Below, piece after piece: positions 16,870 to 36,137 of a stretch of 48,491 nt of DNA. The stretch is from Gammaproteobacteria bacterium (GTDB lineage Bacteria > Pseudomonadota > Gammaproteobacteria > Xanthomonadales > Wenzhouxiangellaceae). A program made the position numbers and the translations under genes. A model generated the notes under the pieces. That model worked only from the letters and a program-made list of their open reading frames with translations, was not told the DNA's origin and searched no databases. Location: positions 1 through 48,491 of the forward strand of contig JAHJQV010000060.1 in the NCBI GenBank assembly GCA_018819105.1, written 5' to 3'. Each line of letters begins with the position of its first letter. The first letter of the stretch is position 1.

Positions 16870-18864
16870 ATGAGCTATTTCATCACCGGCGGCACCGGCT
16901 TCATCGGGCGGCATCTCATCGACCAGCTGGTTCAGCGCAAGGGCAACATCTATGTGCTGGTGCGCAAGGGGTCGCGGGACAAGTTCCGGGCACTCGTGCA
17001 GGAACGCTGGCCGCAACACAGCAAGCGACTGCTGGCCGTCAATGGCGATTTGACCAAGCGTCGTCTGGGGGTCAGCGCCAAGCTGCTGGATGAACTCGAC
17101 GGCAACATCAAGCATGTTTTTCATCTGGCGGCCATGTACGACATGACTGCGAGCATGGAAGACCAGCATGCGGTCAACATCGATGGCACCCGTCATGCGG
17201 TGCAATTTGCCGAGGGAGTCAACGCCAAATGCTTCCATCACACCAGCTCCATTGCCGCTGCCGGCATGTACCGTGGCGTGTTTCGCGAGGACATGTTCGA
17301 AGAGGCCGAGCATCTGGACCATCCCTATCTGCGCACCAAGCACGATTCGGAAGGTCTGGTGCGGTCTGAATGCAGGATTCCCTGGCGCATCTACCGCCCC
17401 GGCATTGTGCTTGGACACTCTGAGACCGGTGAGATCGACAAGGTCGATGGGCCGTATTATTTCTTCAAGATGATCCAGAAGATGCGCCGCATGCTGCCGC
17501 AGTGGATGCCGACACTGGGTGTTGAGGGCGGTCGCATCAACATGGTGCCGGTGGATTTCGTTGCCCGCGCCATGGATCACATTGCGCACCAGCCGAAACT
17601 GGATGGCAAGTGCTTCCATCTCACCGATCCGAAACCGCGCCGCATCGGCGAGGTGCTGAATATCTTCGCCAGCGCCGGCCACGCACCGCTGATGACCATG
17701 CGCATTGATGCGCGCATGTTCAGTTTCGTGCCGGCGGCGATCAAGCAGGGGCTGAACATGCTGCCACCGGTGCGGCGCATCAGCAACCATGTGCTACACG
17801 AGCTGGGCGTGCCGCGGGCGGTGCTGGGCATGCTTAATTACCCGACCCGCTTTGACAGTCGGGAAACCGAGGCGGCGCTGAAAGGATCCGGCATCGAGGT
17901 GCCGCCACTGGAGGACTATGCCTGGATTCTGTGGGATTACTGGGAGCGTCATCTGGATCCCGATCTGTTCATCGATCGCAGTCTGCGCGGGCACGTGGCA
18001 GGCAAGAAAGTGCTCATCACCGGTGGCTCATCCGGCATCGGCAAGGCGGCTTCGGTGATGATGGCCAAGGCCGGTGCCGAGGTGCTGGTGGTGGCTCGCG
18101 GCGAGGAAGCACTGCAGGAAACGGTGGCTGAAATCAACGAGGCTGGCGGTCTGGCGCATGCCTACCGCTGTGATCTGTCCGACATCGCCGAGTGTGATCG
18201 CCTGGTGGCCGAAGTGCTCAGGGACCATGGTCATGTGGACATCCTGGTGAACAACGCCGGACGGTCGATTCGTCGCTCGCTGGCACTGTCCTACGACCGC
18301 TTCCATGATTTCACCCGCACCATGCAGCTGAATTACTTTGGCAGCCTGAAACTGATTCTTGGGTTTCTGCCGCTGATGGAGCAGCGCCGCAGCGGCCAGA
18401 TCATCAATATCTCGTCGATCGGTGTGCTCAGCAATGCGCCACGATTCTCTGCCTATGTGGCTTCCAAGGCGGCGCTGGATGCTTTCTCGCGCTGTGCCGC
18501 AGCCGAGTTCAATGACACCGGTGTGGCCTTTACCACCATCAACATGCCGCTGGTGCGCACCCCGATGATCGCGCCGACCAAGATGTATGACAATGTGCCG
18601 ACGATTTCACCCGAAGAGGCGGCCGAGAAAATCCGCGATGCGGTGATCTACCGGCCACAGCGCATTGCCACCCGACTGGGCATCTTCTCCCAGGTGTTGC
18701 ACATGCTGGCGCCGAAGATTTCCGAGATCATCATGAACTCGGCATTCCGCATGTTTCCCGATTCGGCGGCTGCCAAGGGCATGTCAGGAAGAAAGACCAA
18801 GGAAGAGCAGCCATCGGATGAGCAGATCGCCTTTGCCTCCATCATGCGCGGCATACACTGGTAA
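16870..18864 (+). CDS. Alcohol-forming fatty acyl-CoA reductase, two SDR domains
   Basis: A 664-residue enzyme predicted to reduce long-chain acyl-CoA (and aldehyde) to fatty alcohol with NADPH. The N-terminal extended-SDR/male-sterility-type domain has GGTGFIG (residues 7-13) and catalytic Y153xxxK157. The C-terminal classical SDR domain has GGSSGIG (385-391), NNAG (461-464), Ser515/516 and Y529xxxK533. Length, layout and many stretches (for example RTKHDSEGLVR and VDGPYYFFKMIQK) match the characterised Marinobacter-type reductase from memory. I chose ATG 16870 because it has a GGAG site (16861-16864) and starts at the Rossmann fold; an upstream in-frame start at 16789 lacks these. No wax ester synthase gene lies in the window. 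Confidence 0.92.
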   Translation: MSYFITGGTGFIGRHLIDQLVQRKGNIYVLVRKGSRDKFRALVQERWPQHSKRLLAVNGDLTKRRLGVSAKLLDELDGNIKHVFHLAAMYDMTASMEDQHAVNIDGTRHAVQFAEGVNAKCFHHTSSIAAAGMYRGVFREDMFEEAEHLDHPYLRTKHDSEGLVRSECRIPWRIYRPGIVLGHSETGEIDKVDGPYYFFKMIQKMRRMLPQWMPTLGVEGGRINMVPVDFVARAMDHIAHQPKLDGKCFHLTDPKPRRIGEVLNIFASAGHAPLMTMRIDARMFSFVPAAIKQGLNMLPPVRRISNHVLHELGVPRAVLGMLNYPTRFDSRETEAALKGSGIEVPPLEDYAWILWDYWERHLDPDLFIDRSLRGHVAGKKVLITGGSSGIGKAASVMMAKAGAEVLVVARGEEALQETVAEINEAGGLAHAYRCDLSDIAECDRLVAEVLRDHGHVDILVNNAGRSIRRSLALSYDRFHDFTRTMQLNYFGSLKLILGFLPLMEQRRSGQIINISSIGVLSNAPRFSAYVASKAALDAFSRCAAAEFNDTGVAFTTINMPLVRTPMIAPTKMYDNVPTISPEEAAEKIRDAVIYRPQRIATRLGIFSQVLHMLAPKISEIIMNSAFRMFPDSAAAKGMSGRKTKEEQPSDEQIAFASIMRGIHW

Positions 18865-19010
18865 CTGCAGCGTGCCGATGGGCTGATCGGTGTTTGTGGA
18901 TGCACAAAGTGCACAGATTTCACCGGGAGGTCATGAATAATCGTTGTCAGTCTTTGGCCATTGTGGAGGGTCAGGTTCTGATTGATGTTTACTGATCCGC
19001 AGCAAGCAAA

Positions 19011-19037
19011 AAAAAGCACCGCATGGCGGTGCTTTTT
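19011..19037. terminator. Bidirectional intrinsic terminator
   Basis: GCACCGC (19016-19022) pairs with GCGGTGC (19026-19032) around a three-base loop, flanked by five As on one side and five Ts on the other. It lies between the convergent reductase (+) and DoxX (-) genes and can serve both. Confidence 0.9.
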
Positions 19038-19057
19038 GCTGGCTGACTGCAGCCCGG

Positions 19058-19717
19058 TCAGGTAATGCGGGGAATCGCAATGCTGATGACGCCCAGCGCC
19101 AGCAGGGTGAAGCCGACTCCGGGTAGCAGATAGACAAACGGCACCGCCAGAATCAGCAGTGCCAGGCCAATGGCCGGCAGATCCCCAATGCGGCGATCAT
19201 CGCCACCACGTGCAGTGATTTTGCGCAGCAGCGTGTCCAGGCTGAGCTTGCCACCGCCATGGAAGATCAGTGGCAACAGGATCAGCATGAACAGCAGCGG
19301 AATGCGGTAATTGCCAAAGCCCTTGTCGCTGACGGCATAGCCTTGCCACAACTCGGCCAGACTAGACCATTCCGCCGGCCAATGGGTAGAGACGATGGCG
19401 ATGGTGGTGATCACCAGCAGCGAAAAGGCGGCAAAGCGGGTGAACAGACCCAGCAGCAGCAGAGCGGCAAAAATGACTTCGCCATAGGCCACCATGTTCC
19501 AGTTCAGGCCGGCCGGAAGCCAGTCGAACGGCACAGGGAACTCCTTGTTGGCAAACCACGAGGGGGCCCCGGATTCGCCCACGCTGGCACCCATTTTCAT
19601 GCGTCCGGCTTTCCAGAATTCGGCGAACATGATCAGCCGCAGTCCCAGCGGCCACACCCAGTCACCGGAGGCGCGCAAGCGTGCGGTCAGATCATCGTAC
19701 ATGTCGGTCAAATGCAT
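19058..19717 (-). CDS. hvfD: DoxX-family membrane protein of the hvf RiPP operon
   Basis: A 219-residue inner-membrane protein with about four to five hydrophobic segments: roughly residues 22-34, 74-92, 95-112, 138-152 and 180-215. The LRLIMFAEFWKAGRMKMG segment and the following loops fit DoxX/SURF4-like proteins. In hvfABCD-type operons a DoxX gene closes the cluster; its role is unproven and may be in export, redox supply or metal handling. It lies 43 bases after the hvfC stop on the same strand, and the operon ends at the 19011-19037 terminator. Confidence 0.88.
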   Translation of the reverse strand: MHLTDMYDDLTARLRASGDWVWPLGLRLIMFAEFWKAGRMKMGASVGESGAPSWFANKEFPVPFDWLPAGLNWNMVAYGEVIFAALLLLGLFTRFAAFSLLVITTIAIVSTHWPAEWSSLAELWQGYAVSDKGFGNYRIPLLFMLILLPLIFHGGGKLSLDTLLRKITARGGDDRRIGDLPAIGLALLILAVPFVYLLPGVGFTLLALGVISIAIPRIT

Positions 19718-19760
19718 GTTTCACTCCTGTTGCTGTGAAGTTTAGAAAGATAATGGTCAA

Positions 19761-20552
19761 TTAACCCGAGGCGCTGCTGTGGCCTGGCAAGCAACCCGGC
19801 AGCACGCCTTTGCGCTGCAGCTGTTGCAGTTCCGCGTGACCGCGCTCGATAAAGGTCTGATCTGCGGTCACGCCGAGTCTTGCGGCAAGCGTGATCAACA
19901 GCTGCTTGCCGCTGGCACTACGATTATGTTGCAGCAGTTCGCACAATGCGGCTGTGGCCGGCTGTAACTGCATGAACGAGACACGCTGGCGGCGGTTGCG
20001 ATACAGCAGCAGCCAGACCGGTTGCGCAGCGGGCGCGGTTGGTTGATAGTCCTTGCTGATGCGGTGCACTGGCCAGCGATAGCCCAGCAATCGGATCAGT
20101 GGCGACAGGACCGGAATCCCGTCGAGCAGATCACAGTCGCGCTGGTAGTCGTTGGGATTGACGCTGGTGGCGTCAAGCAGCAACTCGGTCTCGGACCATT
20201 CGTAATGCGCCAGCTCCAGCAGATAGCCGGGATCCCCAGAGTCACTGCCACGGTGGTCATGGATGAAAGCGATGAACTCCTGGCCGATTTCCGGAAACAT
20301 GGGCGTGTTCGCCTGATGCCGGCGCAGAAAGTCGCGCACCAGTTCTGACCAGGCCGGCTCGCCGTAAATCGTTTTCAGTACCGGAAAGTTTTTGCCCAGC
20401 AGGTTATTGATGTTGTTGAAGATCAGGCGTCGATAGATTGCCATGCGCCGGTCCTCGATGCCATCCGGGGCCGGACTGCCATCGGGGTCACGCAGGTGCC
20501 GGGTGAACTGATGCTGCAGCTGCTGAAAGCGCGGAATGTCGGTGTTTTTCAT
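19761..20552 (-). CDS. hvfC: DUF2063 protein, partner of the MNIO enzyme
   Basis: A 263-residue protein whose N-terminal half is the DUF2063 domain (once annotated as putative DNA-binding). The pattern includes a LQHQFTRHLRD start, IYRRLIFNNINNLLGKNFPVLK near residues 39-60, the PMFPEIGQEFIAF segment and LLELAHYEWSE near 109-119. In Haemophilus and bufferin systems this protein forms a complex with the DUF692 enzyme and presents the precursor peptide to it. Here it follows the DUF692 gene by 54 bases. The old DNA-binding label should not be taken as function. Confidence 0.9.
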   Translation of the reverse strand: MKNTDIPRFQQLQHQFTRHLRDPDGSPAPDGIEDRRMAIYRRLIFNNINNLLGKNFPVLKTIYGEPAWSELVRDFLRRHQANTPMFPEIGQEFIAFIHDHRGSDSGDPGYLLELAHYEWSETELLLDATSVNPNDYQRDCDLLDGIPVLSPLIRLLGYRWPVHRISKDYQPTAPAAQPVWLLLYRNRRQRVSFMQLQPATAALCELLQHNRSASGKQLLITLAARLGVTADQTFIERGHAELQQLQRKGVLPGCLPGHSSASG

Positions 20553-20606
20553 CTGCTTTGATCAGGCAGCAGTGCCAGCGGGCTAACAGGCGGTGCCGAC
20601 ACCGGC

Positions 20607-21521
20607 TCAACCGTTGCTGACGGCGGCAAGTTCAGGCTGCATGGCCTGGTGTTGCTGTTGCAGCGACTTGATGTGGTCAACTTCATCCAGCAGTTCCACC
20701 ACCGGGGGGAAATTGAAATCGCGTTCCAGCAGCGTGGGGAACACGCCGAAGTGCGCATAGGCCGCATCCAGCAACTGCCATACATCGGGAATCACGGCGG
20801 CACCGTGGGTGTCGATGATGAGATCATCGGCCTCGTTGTAATGCCCGGCGATGTGGGCATAGGCAATCCGCTGTGCCGGCAGCGAACGCAGAAACTGGAG
20901 CGGATCGTAGCGGTGATTGATACTGTTGACGTAAATGTTGTTGATGTCCAGCAGCAGGTCGCAGTCGGCCTGCTGCAGCACGCTGTTGATGAAATCGATC
21001 TCGCTGATTTCCTGGCCCGGCGCAGCATAGTAGGAGGCGTTCTCAATGGCGATACGCCGTCCCAGCAGATCCTGCACCCGCAGTATGCGTTCGGCGGTGT
21101 AGCGGGCTGCTTCCTCGGTGAATGGAATCGGCATCAGATCATACAGATGCCCGCCATCGCTGCAGAATGTCAGGTGATCGCTGTAGTAGCGAATGTCATG
21201 GCGGTCCATGAACCTGCCGATGCGGCGGATGAAGTCTTCATCCAGCGGGTCCGGGCTGCCCAGCGACAATGACAGGCCATGCAGCAGCATGGGGTAGCGT
21301 TCACAGTAGGCATGAAACTTGCGTCCCAGGTGACCGCCAACATCAATCCAGTTTTCCGGTGCCACTTCCATGAAGTCCACCGCCGCCATGCGCCCGGCCA
21401 GCTGCTCATCATTGAGCTTGCTTAGCAGGGCACGGCGTAAACCAAGACCGGCACCCTCAACAGGGTGCCGGCTCGGGATTTTCTCTATGCTGGTAGAACC
21501 AGTCATAGTGCATTCAGACAT
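20607..21521 (-). CDS. hvfB: DUF692/MNIO multinuclear iron RiPP-modifying enzyme
   Basis: A 304-residue TIM-barrel enzyme of the MNIO (DUF692) family, which uses two or three iron ions and oxygen to rework cysteines in peptide substrates. Likely metal ligands are visible in order: Glu in MEVAPENW, His in LLHGLSLSLG, Asp-His in YYSDHLTF, Glu in IAIENASYY, Asp in LLLDINNIYVN, His in YAHIAGH, Asp-His in IDTHG and Glu in LLERDFN. It starts 17 bases after hvfA; a second ATG at 21506 would remove five residues. Given the EGSCG-rich precursor, the closest described reaction is oxazolone/thioamide formation on HvfA in Haemophilus influenzae. The chemistry here is inferred. Confidence 0.93.
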   Translation of the reverse strand: MSECTMTGSTSIEKIPSRHPVEGAGLGLRRALLSKLNDEQLAGRMAAVDFMEVAPENWIDVGGHLGRKFHAYCERYPMLLHGLSLSLGSPDPLDEDFIRRIGRFMDRHDIRYYSDHLTFCSDGGHLYDLMPIPFTEEAARYTAERILRVQDLLGRRIAIENASYYAAPGQEISEIDFINSVLQQADCDLLLDINNIYVNSINHRYDPLQFLRSLPAQRIAYAHIAGHYNEADDLIIDTHGAAVIPDVWQLLDAAYAHFGVFPTLLERDFNFPPVVELLDEVDHIKSLQQQHQAMQPELAAVSNG

Positions 21522-21538
21522 TCAGGCTGAATGTTGGC

Positions 21539-21964
21539 TCAGGAAAGACCGCCGCAGCTGCCTTCGCCGCAGGAACCTTCACCACAAGAGCCTTCTTCAC
21601 CCTTGTCGTCGCCTTCACCACAAGAGCCTTCTTCGCCCTTGTCGTCGCCTTCACCGCAAGAGCCTTCTTCACCCTTGTCATCGCCTTCACCACAAGAGCC
21701 TTCTTCGCCTTTGTCGTCGCCTTCACCGCAGGAGCCTTCACCACAAGAGCCTTCTTCGCCCTTGTCGTCGTCTTCGCCGCAGGAACCTTCGCCACAAGAG
21801 CCTTCTTCGCCCTTGTCACCGCCCAGCATGTAGCCCTGATCCAGGTCTACCGAGCCGAACGCAACGTCGTTGGCGTCAAGATCTGCAGCAACCGCAGATG
21901 AAGCGATGAATGCCGAACCAATGGCCACAGCAATCGGGGTATTGATCAATTTACGCGTAGTCAT
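21539..21964 (-). CDS. hvfA: RiPP precursor with signal peptide and ten EGSCG motifs
   Basis: A 141-residue peptide precursor. Residues 1-26 are a Sec signal (basic TTRK, hydrophobic core, AVA cleavage motif). A short leader-like stretch DLDANDVAFGSVDLDQGYMLGG follows. Residues 54-138 carry ten EGSCG motifs with cysteines at 57, 62, 74, 79, 91, 103, 115, 127, 132 and 137, separated by acidic DDKGE spacers. Residues 81-128 are four exact copies of a 12-residue unit. The start is ATG 21964 because a GGAG site sits nine bases upstream; ATG 21973 would touch that site. The upstream gap to nth (295 bases) holds a 14-base palindrome. The product is probably periplasmic or secreted and copper-binding. 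Confidence 0.9.
   Translation of the reverse strand: MTTRKLINTPIAVAIGSAFIASSAVAADLDANDVAFGSVDLDQGYMLGGDKGEEGSCGEGSCGEDDDKGEEGSCGEGSCGEGDDKGEEGSCGEGDDKGEEGSCGEGDDKGEEGSCGEGDDKGEEGSCGEGSCGEGSCGGLS
21581..21724 (-). repeat. Four 36-bp tandem repeats inside hvfA
   Basis: Each 36-bp unit encodes EGDDKGEEGSCG; four copies are identical at protein level. Partial units with EDDD or doubled EGSCG flank them. This is coding repetition, not CRISPR: there are no unique spacers. Confidence 0.9.
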
Positions 21965-22136
21965 AAATAACATCTCCGTTTTTTGCAAAAAATGAACTTG
22001 GCTGGCTGTCTGTCGAGTCTGACTCTGGTACCAAATTCCAATACATCGACAGCAGGCTGCCGAATCAGTGTTGCACCAACCTGGGCAGGCGGATGCAGTT
22101 CGCTGTACAAGACCCACATCGGTAGTCGTATCTTAC

Positions 22137-22150
22137 ACATTGGCCAATGT
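22137..22150. promoter_or_regulatory. 14-bp palindrome upstream of hvfA, candidate operator
   Basis: ACATTGGCCAATGT is a perfect palindrome 173 bases before the hvfA start and 110 bases after the nth stop. The 295-base gap holds no other recognised feature. It may be a regulator site for the RiPP operon; the cognate regulator is not in the window. Confidence 0.35.
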
Positions 22151-22259
22151 TTTCTCTGGCTGCCGGTGCAGATCCCGAATGCGCAATCCAATCATAGCAC
22201 TTTGGTATGAGCATAGCATTGACAGGATCGACAGTTCAATCGCAGCAAGGTTCATGTGC

Positions 22260-22892
22260 TCAGGCTGTCTTGGCGCGGTATTCACACAGATCACGGATGA
22301 TGCACTCGGCACAGTTGGGCGAGCGTGCCTTGCAGGTGTAGCGGCCATGCAGGATCAGCCAGTGATGGGCATGCTGCAGGTAGCGTGGCGCGATGCGTTT
22401 GAGCAGCAGCTTTTCCACTGCCAGCGGGGTTTTGCCACGCGCCAGCCCGGTGCGGTTGGCGACGCGGAAGATGTGTGTGTCCACCGCCATGGTCGGCTGG
22501 CCGAAGGCGCAATTGAGGATCACATTGGCGGTTTTGCGGCCCACGCCAGGCAGTTGCTCCAGTTCCTCCCGGCTCTGCGGTACCTGACCATTGTGCTCGC
22601 TGAGCAACTGCTGACAGCAGGCCAGCAGGTTTCTGGTTTTGTTGTTGAACAGCCCCAGGCTCTGCAGATGGGTTTTCAGTCGCTGCTCACCCAGTGCTAG
22701 GATGGCGGCCGGTGTGTTGGCGACCGCAAACAGCTTGCGGGTGACCTTGTTGACGCCGACATCGGTGGATTGCGCCGACAGTGACACCGCCACCAGCAGC
22801 TCGAAAGGCGTCCGATACTCAAGTTCGGTTTTCGGTTCCGGGTTCTGCGCCTGCCAGCGCCGGAACATCTCATCGCGCTGCGCCTGATTCAT
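22260..22892 (-). CDS. nth: Endonuclease III
   Basis: DNA glycosylase/AP lyase of base excision repair acting on oxidised pyrimidines. Its 210 residues match E. coli (211). It has the helix-hairpin-helix LPGVGRKTANVIL with the catalytic lysine, the catalytic Asp in VDTHIFRVANR, and the C-x6-C-x2-C-x5-C iron-sulfur cluster at the C-terminus. The start overlaps the rnfE stop (ATGA), so it is the last gene of the rnf operon, as in many gammaproteobacteria. Confidence 0.97.
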   Translation of the reverse strand: MNQAQRDEMFRRWQAQNPEPKTELEYRTPFELLVAVSLSAQSTDVGVNKVTRKLFAVANTPAAILALGEQRLKTHLQSLGLFNNKTRNLLACCQQLLSEHNGQVPQSREELEQLPGVGRKTANVILNCAFGQPTMAVDTHIFRVANRTGLARGKTPLAVEKLLLKRIAPRYLQHAHHWLILHGRYTCKARSPNCAECIIRDLCEYRAKTA

Positions 22893-34981: not shown

Positions 34982-35435
34982 ACATTTGTGCAGTTGTGAA
35001 TCCAGGCTACAGGGTACAGGCTGTTGTGCCCGGCTGCCACAGCCGCTGTGTTGCGGTGGTCAGGCATTTGTGCCGTCTTGACGACCTGAGAGCAGGTCGA
35101 ACTTCAGCGCCCCCATCCTCACCTTCCCCCGCGCACGGGGGAAGGGACTGCTCATTGCCAGCGTGATGCTCACAGCCATCCGTAGCATGGATAACTGAGC
35201 ATCAGGTATACGTCGATGCAAGCAGTTTGATGTGATGCCTAATCAACGTTTCGGAAGCTCCCTCCCCCGCATACGGGGGAATGGGCTGCTCATTGCCAGC
35301 GTGAAGTTCACAGCCAACCGTAGCATGGATAACTGAGCATCAGGTATACGTCGATGCAAGCAGATTGATGTGATGTCTAATCAATGCTTCGGAAGCTCCC
35401 TCCCCAGTGAGCGGGGGAGGGTTGGGGTGGGGGCA
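34982..35435. other. Intergenic region with GC-rich palindromes and tandem duplication
   Basis: No gene is supported here. It holds a CTTCCCCC/GGGGGAAG hairpin (35123-35130 with 35137-35144), related C-run/G-run palindromes near 35260-35285 and 35395-35433, and the 138-bp tandem duplication listed separately. The pattern continues on the other side of the DUF559 gene. Confidence 0.75.
35144..35405. repeat. 138-bp tandem duplication
   Basis: Bases 35144-35267 recur at 35282-35405 with only a few substitutions. The unit runs from CTGCTCATTGCCAGCGTGA through GTAGCATGGATAACTGAGC to TCGGAAGCTCCCTCCCC. Each unit is bounded by a C-run/G-run palindrome, so duplication between the palindromes is likely. 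Confidence 0.9.
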
Positions 35436-35807
35436 TCACTCACTTCGTGCTGTGCTGGAATCAACACGCGAACCAAGCGCCTGCAATATCATCTCAAGGC
35501 AAGCATCGGTATGCTGTAGAACCTCATGGTTCCAGAAGCGCAATACCCTGAAGCCCTGTCGATTCAGGTAGCGGGTGCGCCTGGCATCCTCAGTCTCCAA
35601 CTCGCCGTGCTGTCCGCCATCCACCTCGATCACCAGTCCGGCCTGCAGGCATGCGAAATCTGCAACGAACGGGCCAATCGGATGTTGCCGCCGGAACTTG
35701 TAACCGAGCATCTGTCGCGCCCGCAGATGCCGCCACAACCGTTGCTCCGCATCGGTCATCTGCGTGCGTAAACGGCGTGCCCTGGTGGTGGAGTTGGGGG
35801 TTCTCAT
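35436..35807 (-). CDS. DUF559 domain protein, Vsr-like nuclease fold
   Basis: A 123-residue protein of the DUF559 family, related to very-short-patch-repair-type endonucleases. It has RRLRTQMTDAEQRLWRHLRA at the start, then YKFRRQHPIGPFVADF (residues 35-50) and the acidic core LVIEVDGGQHGE, followed by RVLRFWNHEVL. The Asp in VADF and Glu-Val-Asp are the likely metal-binding residues. Function is unproven. Palindromic repeats lie on both sides, and the first 24 codons are duplicated upstream at 35891-35966. It is not next to a DNA methyltransferase gene. Confidence 0.85.
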   Translation of the reverse strand: MRTPNSTTRARRLRTQMTDAEQRLWRHLRARQMLGYKFRRQHPIGPFVADFACLQAGLVIEVDGGQHGELETEDARRTRYLNRQGFRVLRFWNHEVLQHTDACLEMILQALGSRVDSSTARSE

Positions 35808-36022
35808 GCCCCCATCCTAACCTTCCCCCGCGAACGGGGGAAGGGACTGCTCACAGGCAGCGTCGATCTTATGGGCTACTGCACCAGGCTGCCACAGCCG
35901 TTGCTCCGCATCGGTCATCTGCGTGCGTAAACGGCGTGCCCTGGTGGTGGAGTTGGGGGTTCTCATGCCCCCATCCTAACCTTCCCCCGCGAACGGGGGA
36001 AGGGACTGCTCACAGGCAGCGT
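35732..36022. repeat. Direct duplication of the DUF559 5' end and flank
   Basis: Bases 35732-35863 recur at 35891-36022, offset by 159 bases, with very few differences. Each copy includes the start of the DUF559 gene and the CTTCCCCC/GGGGGAAG palindrome downstream on the + strand (35823-35844 and 35982-36003). Confidence 0.9.
35891..35966 (-). pseudogene. Fragment of a DUF559 gene (5' end only)
   Basis: Reads MRTPNSTTRARRLRTQMTDA and a few codons more, then leaves homology. It is a by-product of the 159-base-offset duplication and lacks the nuclease core. Confidence 0.75.
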
Positions 36023-36137
36023 CAACGTTATGGGCACAAGCAATCCAGCATCGAATTATCAGACGGCCAGCATCGATACTATTCATTTGCCGCGGTGTTG
36101 CGGTGGTGATTTCGACATGAACAGCGCTTCGGAAGCT

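Follow-up and report, generated by a model that had tools for sequence, protein, structure and literature searches.

A predicted captophorin operon from the Wenzhouxiangellaceae in which serine replaces the lysine of the EGKCG motif

An operon of a known class with an unusual precursor

The window is a 48,491-nucleotide stretch of DNA (contig JAHJQV010000060.1) from a gammaproteobacterium of the family Wenzhouxiangellaceae. It carries four genes that encode a peptide precursor with ten EGSCG motifs, an MNIO enzyme, a DUF2063 partner and DoxX. We consider it probable that this is a captophorin operon of the oxazolin/fontiphorin type. Its product would buffer copper in the periplasm and carry up to ten thiooxazoles, formed by unchanged chemistry with serine in the place of lysine. 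The operon is a genuine member of an established class, unusual in the sequence of its substrate, and the mechanism that we favour is the same chemistry with a changed product charge. Published work is cited here from the available portions of each source. The features are as follows.

21539..21964, minus strand: hvfA-type precursor, 141 amino acids, ten EGSCG motifs (NF050137, 40.7 bits, cut-off 19.5)
21884..21964, minus strand: putative Sec-type signal region, about residues 1-27 (by eye, KLINTPIAVAIGSAFIASSAVAA; putative cleavage site)
21551..21805, minus strand: array of ten EGSCG motifs, with spacers rich in Asp and Glu and containing one Lys each
20607..21521, minus strand: MNIO (DUF692, HvfB family; PF05114, 337.2 bits), start codon at 21521 or 21506
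19761..20552, minus strand: DUF2063 and NGO1945_C partner (HvfC family; NF050145, PF09836, PF22106)
19058..19717, minus strand: DoxX (HvfX family; NF050144, 110.4 over a cut-off of 80; PF07681, 49.1)

A first-pass annotation had placed four co-directional genes of an hvfABC and DoxX-type operon at 19058-21964, and both the coordinates and the reading frames are correct. From 21964 to 19058 on the minus strand the order is precursor, MNIO, DUF2063 and DoxX, with gaps of 17 (or 32), 54 and 43 bases. The operon type is likewise borne out, since all four proteins exceed the cut-offs of Hvf-type NCBIfam models. The MNIO falls in the HvfB family (NF003818, 428.1, cut-off 360). The partner scores 286.7 against NF050145 (cut-off 142) and has the C-terminal RRE-like domain, recognised through PF09836 and PF22106. 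NF050137 (KCGExKCG_twice) matches the precursor in four stretches. The stricter HvfA equivalog, NF050188, gives 32.4, under its cut-off of 95, and the precursor is thus not oxazolin HvfA proper. A genome-wide search of the window genome (98.7% complete) found one MNIO, one DUF2063 gene and one NF050137 match. Hence, if EGSCG were no substrate, the MNIO would have no substrate visible to NF050137.

The ten cysteines of the precursor all lie within EGSCG (10/10), as first described, with motifs at residues 54, 59, 71, 76, 88, 100, 112, 124, 129 and 134. The residue before Cys is Ser in 10/10 and Lys in 0/10, so the precursor falls outside the EGKCG 'Lys-Cys group' and was filed as a variant. In print that term names a set of precursors; within the available text, Lys is not shown to be necessary. 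The N-terminus reads MTTRKLIN...SSAVAA, and a signal region is recognisable by eye. Six Lys remain in the mature region, all of them within spacers. The spacers had been called very regular. The array does consist of repeated units, but these have two lengths, 17 residues for a motif pair and 12 for a single motif, in the order pair, pair, three singles and a final triplet. Serine is encoded in the array by TCT (six times), TCC (three) and AGC (once), and Cys and Gly codons vary too; the array is therefore a varied coding sequence and not an identical DNA repeat. No solved structure matched the precursor at E 0.01, and a single-sequence AlphaFold model was uninformative (mean pLDDT 45). The signal region probably also serves as the leader seen by the enzyme complex; HvfBC favours full-length HvfA as its substrate (PMC13419390).

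Serine before cysteine is a trait of the lineage

We collected 161 MNIO loci, drawn from the family, the order and the phylum to which the window belongs; 133 of them had a precursor with at least three motifs. The remaining 28 had fewer than three readable motifs and were dropped (1/33 in the family, 27/128 outside). The sample is not random: it combines the best-scoring loci with loci of the order hand-picked for family spread from 215 order genomes over the cut-off, and two of the 101 precursors outside the family come from one genome. Below, f1 denotes Wenzhouxiangellaceae, the window's family in GTDB, and f2, f5, f8, f9 and f12 are other families in the sample. An HvfB-type MNIO was present in 32/43 Wenzhouxiangellaceae genomes.

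Lys or Arg precedes Cys in 20 of the 251 motifs from Wenzhouxiangellaceae, where Ser (121) and Ala (85) predominate, compared with 557/722 in the 101 other precursors. Precursors entirely without Lys or Arg at this position account for 22/32 in the family and 1/101 elsewhere. In the clade of the window's MNIO, which comprises four species (G000, G001, G004 and G008), Ser occupies 35/35 motifs. A motif-directed search also found Lys-free precursors adjoining an MNIO in Thioalkalivibrio, Methylonatrum, Neiella and Myxococcales records. On these counts, Ser is a trait of the Wenzhouxiangellaceae lineage that recurs in other lineages, and not a peculiarity of the window.

The history of the change was considered on a tree. 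Sixteen changes were counted, and no rate follows from this number because the 24 tree rows added from the pattern scan favour Lys-free precursors. A proposal that Lys was lost twice within the family was rejected: a FastTree of 157 rows separates the window's four-species clade from the rest of the family, but an approximately unbiased test (67 rows, three odd rows left out) did not reject a single clade (p 0.323). Separately, the sole Lys-free precursor among the 101 outside the family, at locus L140, has EGECG in its tandem motifs and EGSCG in its isolated ones. The Glu of these tandem motifs is the residue that severely impaired FonBC (PMC13097082).

Reported substrate-contact sites of the enzyme are unchanged

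The solved chains nearest to the MNIO and its partner are 3bww_A (E 9.9e-74) and 3dee_A (E 6.1e-11), respectively. Aligned to 3bww, the MNIO keeps the HGLS, SDHL, ENxSYY, LDxNN, HIAGH, DTHG and ERDF stretches. We take the iron ligands and the catalytic Asp to lie in these shared stretches, presumably at the aligned positions.

In FonB, an Arg-Arg pair and a Phe are reported as substrate contacts and an Asp as the catalytic base (PMC13097082). We equated GLRR and ERDF with FonB R15/R16 and D249/F250 by motif, without the FonB sequence for comparison. Both stretches occur in 32/32 Wenzhouxiangellaceae members with a readable precursor. Outside the family, Arg-Arg is found in 100/101 and ERDF in 100/101. 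By this motif comparison, the reported substrate-contact sites of the MNIO are unchanged despite the loss of Lys. A search for an enzyme residue that tracks Lys loss gave no candidate that survived. The largest differences between the family and the other loci are at columns 117 and 84, yet the window has the common Asp at 117 and Ser at 84, and neither accounts for its serine motifs.

It had been suggested that the product might have different chemistry. This is conceivable, but nothing here supports it: the metal-site stretches, the catalytic-base Asp, Arg-Arg and Phe are all kept, and FonBC accepted peptides in which both repeats had Ala, Arg or Thr ahead of Cys. With Phe or Glu at this position processing was severely impaired; EGACG appears in the same preprint as the tested Ala variant (PMC13097082).

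Tandem and isolated motifs differ outside the family

We defined a tandem motif as one with a neighbour five residues away and an isolated motif as one without such a neighbour. Outside Wenzhouxiangellaceae, Lys or Arg occurs in 483/515 tandem and 74/207 isolated motifs, and 108 isolated motifs have Ser. Within single precursors, isolated motifs have less Lys/Arg in 46, more in 2 and an equal share in 23. The direction holds by family (12 to 1 in f2, 18 to 0 in f8, 6 to 0 in f12 and 10 to 1 in the pooled rest). Locus L113 is an example of a mixed precursor, with four Lys and twelve Ser motifs. In Wenzhouxiangellaceae the distinction is lost, with Lys or Arg in 19/238 tandem motifs and other residues in 219/238.

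The pattern was found by inspection and not predicted beforehand. For replication we used 66 class-level precursors: of 70 loci, three had been used before and one was a duplicate, and a few genomes contribute two loci each. Lys or Arg was present in 62/83 isolated and 416/446 tandem motifs, but within precursors the comparison was 5 against 2 with 22 ties (sign p 0.45), in a set drawn with a model built on Lys pairs and therefore favouring all-Lys precursors. The tandem-Lys/isolated-Ser rule thus holds strongly in the first set, drawn mostly from the window's order, and is unproven beyond it.

These counts raise the possibility that sites with Lys and sites with Ser differ in function. Tandem Lys motifs would become paired thiooxazoles, isolated Ser motifs would stay thiols or be modified otherwise, and the window's product would be partly or wholly different. 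The skew between tandem and isolated motifs, within and between precursors, is what such a division would produce, and FonBC left a one-repeat FonA peptide unmodified (PMC13097082). Even so, we think it unlikely. The tandem motifs of Wenzhouxiangellaceae also have Ser or Ala while the enzyme's contact sites are unchanged, Ala and Thr double variants are FonBC substrates (PMC13097082), the effect is weak in the class-level set, and the isolated motifs within an array may have arisen by copying of a single unit. A stronger version, which we doubt to a similar degree, is a two-letter code in which Lys marks tandem pairs as one kind of metal site and Ser marks isolated Cys with another fate or metal. 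The window's lineage would then have converted its whole array to Ser motifs. The resulting captophorin would be polyanionic and would differ in metal loading or solubility, with the enzyme's known recognition residues unchanged.

Codon evidence that serine is kept, and an acidic array

Both TCN and AGY Ser codons were found in 9/16 family precursors with at least four Ser motifs. One synonymous change cannot convert TCN to AGY or the reverse. Judged by codon usage, there is thus evidence that Ser is kept.

We calculated net charge per residue for the region starting 25 residues before the first motif. It was -0.265 in Lys-free family members and -0.234 in other family members, against -0.097 (f8), -0.028 (f2) and -0.009 (f12) outside the family. 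The loss of Lys might simply accompany a general acidification of a lineage living under saline or alkaline conditions and have no separate bearing on metal or enzyme. Besides the strongly acidic array, Lys-free precursors occur in the Thioalkalivibrio and Methylonatrum records, and one Wenzhouxiangella comes from soda lakes (PMC7691419). Net acidity of the enzyme also follows low motif Lys/Arg across 157 rows (Spearman -0.375, p 1e-6, kinship not corrected), being 0.071 in Lys-free rows and 0.059 in the rest. Because this trend runs in the same direction across the sample, general acidification is a serious partial explanation. Conversely, enzyme acidity differs little between f1 (0.070 and 0.063) and f8 (0.066), and nine independent pairs on supported branches, too few for power, showed no trend for enzyme Lys, acidity or guanine-cytosine (GC) content. 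On balance we regard acidification as a tentative possibility, and one that is compatible with a captophorin operon of unchanged chemistry. GC content as a cause of Lys loss was rejected, since there was no correlation with locus GC (rho 0.01).

Predicted product and copper loading

The precursor would be made with its signal peptide and then presented by the DUF2063/RRE partner. The iron-containing MNIO would oxidise each Cys of EGSCG to a 5-thiooxazole, with loss of four hydrogens (about -4 Da each), using the Ser carbonyl where the Lys carbonyl would be. The Sec pathway would export the modified peptide, and in the periplasm its thiol-bearing rings would hold Cu(I) and so buffer copper. Loss of Lys would leave the reaction unaffected and the chain strongly acidic.

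The first-pass annotation gave the product of HvfA as oxazolone/thioamide. This was the original assignment for oxazolin and is now outdated: fontiphorin, oxazolin and gonophorin have been assigned 5-thiooxazoles under the class name captophorins (PMC13097082), and the HvfA product was likewise reassigned elsewhere (PMC13419390). A capacity of up to ten copper ions was also an overstatement. Native mass spectrometry of fontiphorin, which has seven rings, showed binding of up to four Cu (PMC13097082), and a loading of about one Cu per two rings, or about five, is more likely for the window's peptide than ten.

Several points weigh against this prediction. FonBC modified a two-repeat peptide and left a one-repeat peptide unmodified (PMC13097082); three motifs of the window's precursor are isolated, and the number of rings may thus fall short of ten. 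The available text of that preprint does not mention Ser before Cys among the tested FonBC variants. In Microbulbifer, the related mmr operon went undetected in proteomes whether or not copper was present, and the authors of that study are reluctant to call it protective (PMC12538549). The four operon genes include neither a regulator nor a copper gene, and a consensus scan of 18850-22420 found no sigma-70-type promoter.

Copper might not be the main target at all. The D/E-rich spacers and the rings together could bind another metal, or the peptide could serve in redox stress with DoxX. Such spacers, the Microbulbifer operon's lack of response to copper (PMC12538549) and EF-hand-like stretches between motifs in some f12 precursors, fusions of a kind described in PMC12452194, all point that way. 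We nevertheless think it distinctly improbable, as characterised products of the captophorin class are generally reported to bind Cu (PMC13097082).

Comparison with known systems

The closest known systems are oxazolin (HvfABC, Haemophilus influenzae) and fontiphorin (FonABC, Fontimonas thermophila) of the Buf_EGKCG group. The window resembles them in its repeated EGxCG, its MNIO with a DUF2063/RRE partner and the order precursor, MNIO, partner, often with DoxX. It differs in that x is Ser in all ten motifs and not Lys, in its far more acidic peptide and in its mixture of 12- and 17-residue units.

Bufferins Buf1 (DUF2282) and Buf2 share the enzyme and partner class, the signal peptide and the thiooxazole, the last two being predicted for the window. 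Unlike the window's precursor, theirs have four (Buf1) or mostly six (Buf2) conserved Cys. A Pfam scan of the precursor gave no match, hence no DUF2282, and the MNIO scores 258.7 with the BufB model, under its cut-off of 310; on these two results a bufferin is not indicated. Methanobactins (MbnABC) share an MNIO acting on Cys and Cu binding, again predicted here, and differ in a leader peptide that is not a Sec signal, the MbnC partner and oxazolone/thioamide. With the MbnB model the MNIO scores 51.5, far below the cut-off of 325.

A literature search for words starting with EGSCG gave no match. In a broader search for the motif at any position in a word, the papers with EGSCG among the matches listed have titles on other subjects (growth hormone etc.); the motif may be tabulated in the supplements of PMC13097082.

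Serine-type precursors away from the MNIO

We scanned for pairs of EG[S/T/R/C/W]CG, a pattern that admits Thr, Arg, Cys and Trp codons besides Ser. At least 118 stretches were found, with an MNIO in 39 among the matches listed. Among those listed with at least four motifs, at least half of them Ser, an MNIO lay within the stretch in 24 cases and was absent from it in 59. A same-strand gene resembling an extracytoplasmic function (ECF) sigma factor lay within 2.5 kb in 41 of these 59, against 1/24 (on the other strand) with an MNIO. A DUF3379 relative was present in 44/59 and a methyladenine glycosylase relative in 38/59, against 0/24 and 0/24. The Pfam names of these neighbours were checked on locus L264 alone. 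At L264 (4229-6635) and 40 similar loci, an EGSCG precursor lies near the ECF sigma gene, mostly with DUF3379 and the glycosylase; 24/41 are Woeseiaceae records among the matches listed.

We searched 50 genomes, namely those of 49 of the 59 listed stretches and one more. An MNIO was present elsewhere in 46/50. Thirty enzyme loci from those genomes had the partner in 27, DoxX in 26 and, by reading, an adjoining EGxCG precursor in one (L321, mostly Lys); six of the 30 end at contig ends, and the second MNIO of some genomes lay outside this reading. It looks as if the Ser-type precursor is modified in trans, under its own sigma factor. Bufferin precursors unlinked to MNIO genes are mentioned in the landscape paper PMC12452194, and we did not see the ECF sigma/DUF3379 arrangement described in its available text.

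Flanking and regulatory features

Two further minus-strand features were predicted at the operon.

19011..19037, minus strand: terminator-like hairpin 3' of DoxX, a weak sign, as the region has four such sites and 2.9 are expected from shuffles
21447..21472, minus strand: hairpin of 11 pairs where the MNIO gene begins

The region around the second hairpin (21430-21545) folds at -49.2 kcal/mol (z -5.23; 0/200 shuffles as low). A similar hairpin of this GC-rich kind was predicted in loci L056 and L057, and it is weaker in most of the 13 loci folded. It might act as a brake on enzyme translation, lowering enzyme yield relative to precursor. An Rfam scan of the window gave nothing at gathering scores.

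Directly upstream of the operon is an endonuclease III-type gene (HhH-GPD, EndIII_4Fe-2S; 22260-22892, minus strand). Among the leaders listed, 19 from families f1 and f8 have a gene end of this type ahead of the precursor, so the site is old. Between them, at 22065-22214 on the minus strand, is a leader open reading frame with CGSCTANC. In the genus mate G001 the aligned sequence reads CGSCSARC, and two of its Cys codons carry synonymous changes (two sequences only). A copper-sensing upstream frame was rejected, the CGSC-x-A-x-C stretch being common to G000 and G001 only. A CxxC frame occurs in 29/127 leaders, against a shuffle mean of 13 (range 8-18, 20 shuffles). However, 19/24 CxxC matches listed (f1, f8, f5 and f9) resemble the iron-sulphur tail of the upstream endonuclease III gene, and this excess is therefore no evidence for copper sensing. 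Elsewhere in the window, at 35125-36035, are two tandem arrays of about two copies each, with periods of 138 and 159; both contain a stretch like CCCCCGCACACGGGGGAAGGGACTGCT.

Discussion

Beyond what the first-pass annotation described for one precursor, motif counts across loci indicate that Ser is the rule in this lineage, often occupies the isolated motifs where a precursor is mixed, and turns up again in lineages other than this one. Near-total loss of Lys with the enzyme's contact sites intact amounts to a natural substitution experiment on what an MNIO requires. The prediction is that Lys is dispensable for the chemistry and would matter, if at all, for the product, through charge, solubility or copper packing. 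The tandem-Lys/isolated-Ser pattern makes the role of Lys testable within one mixed precursor.

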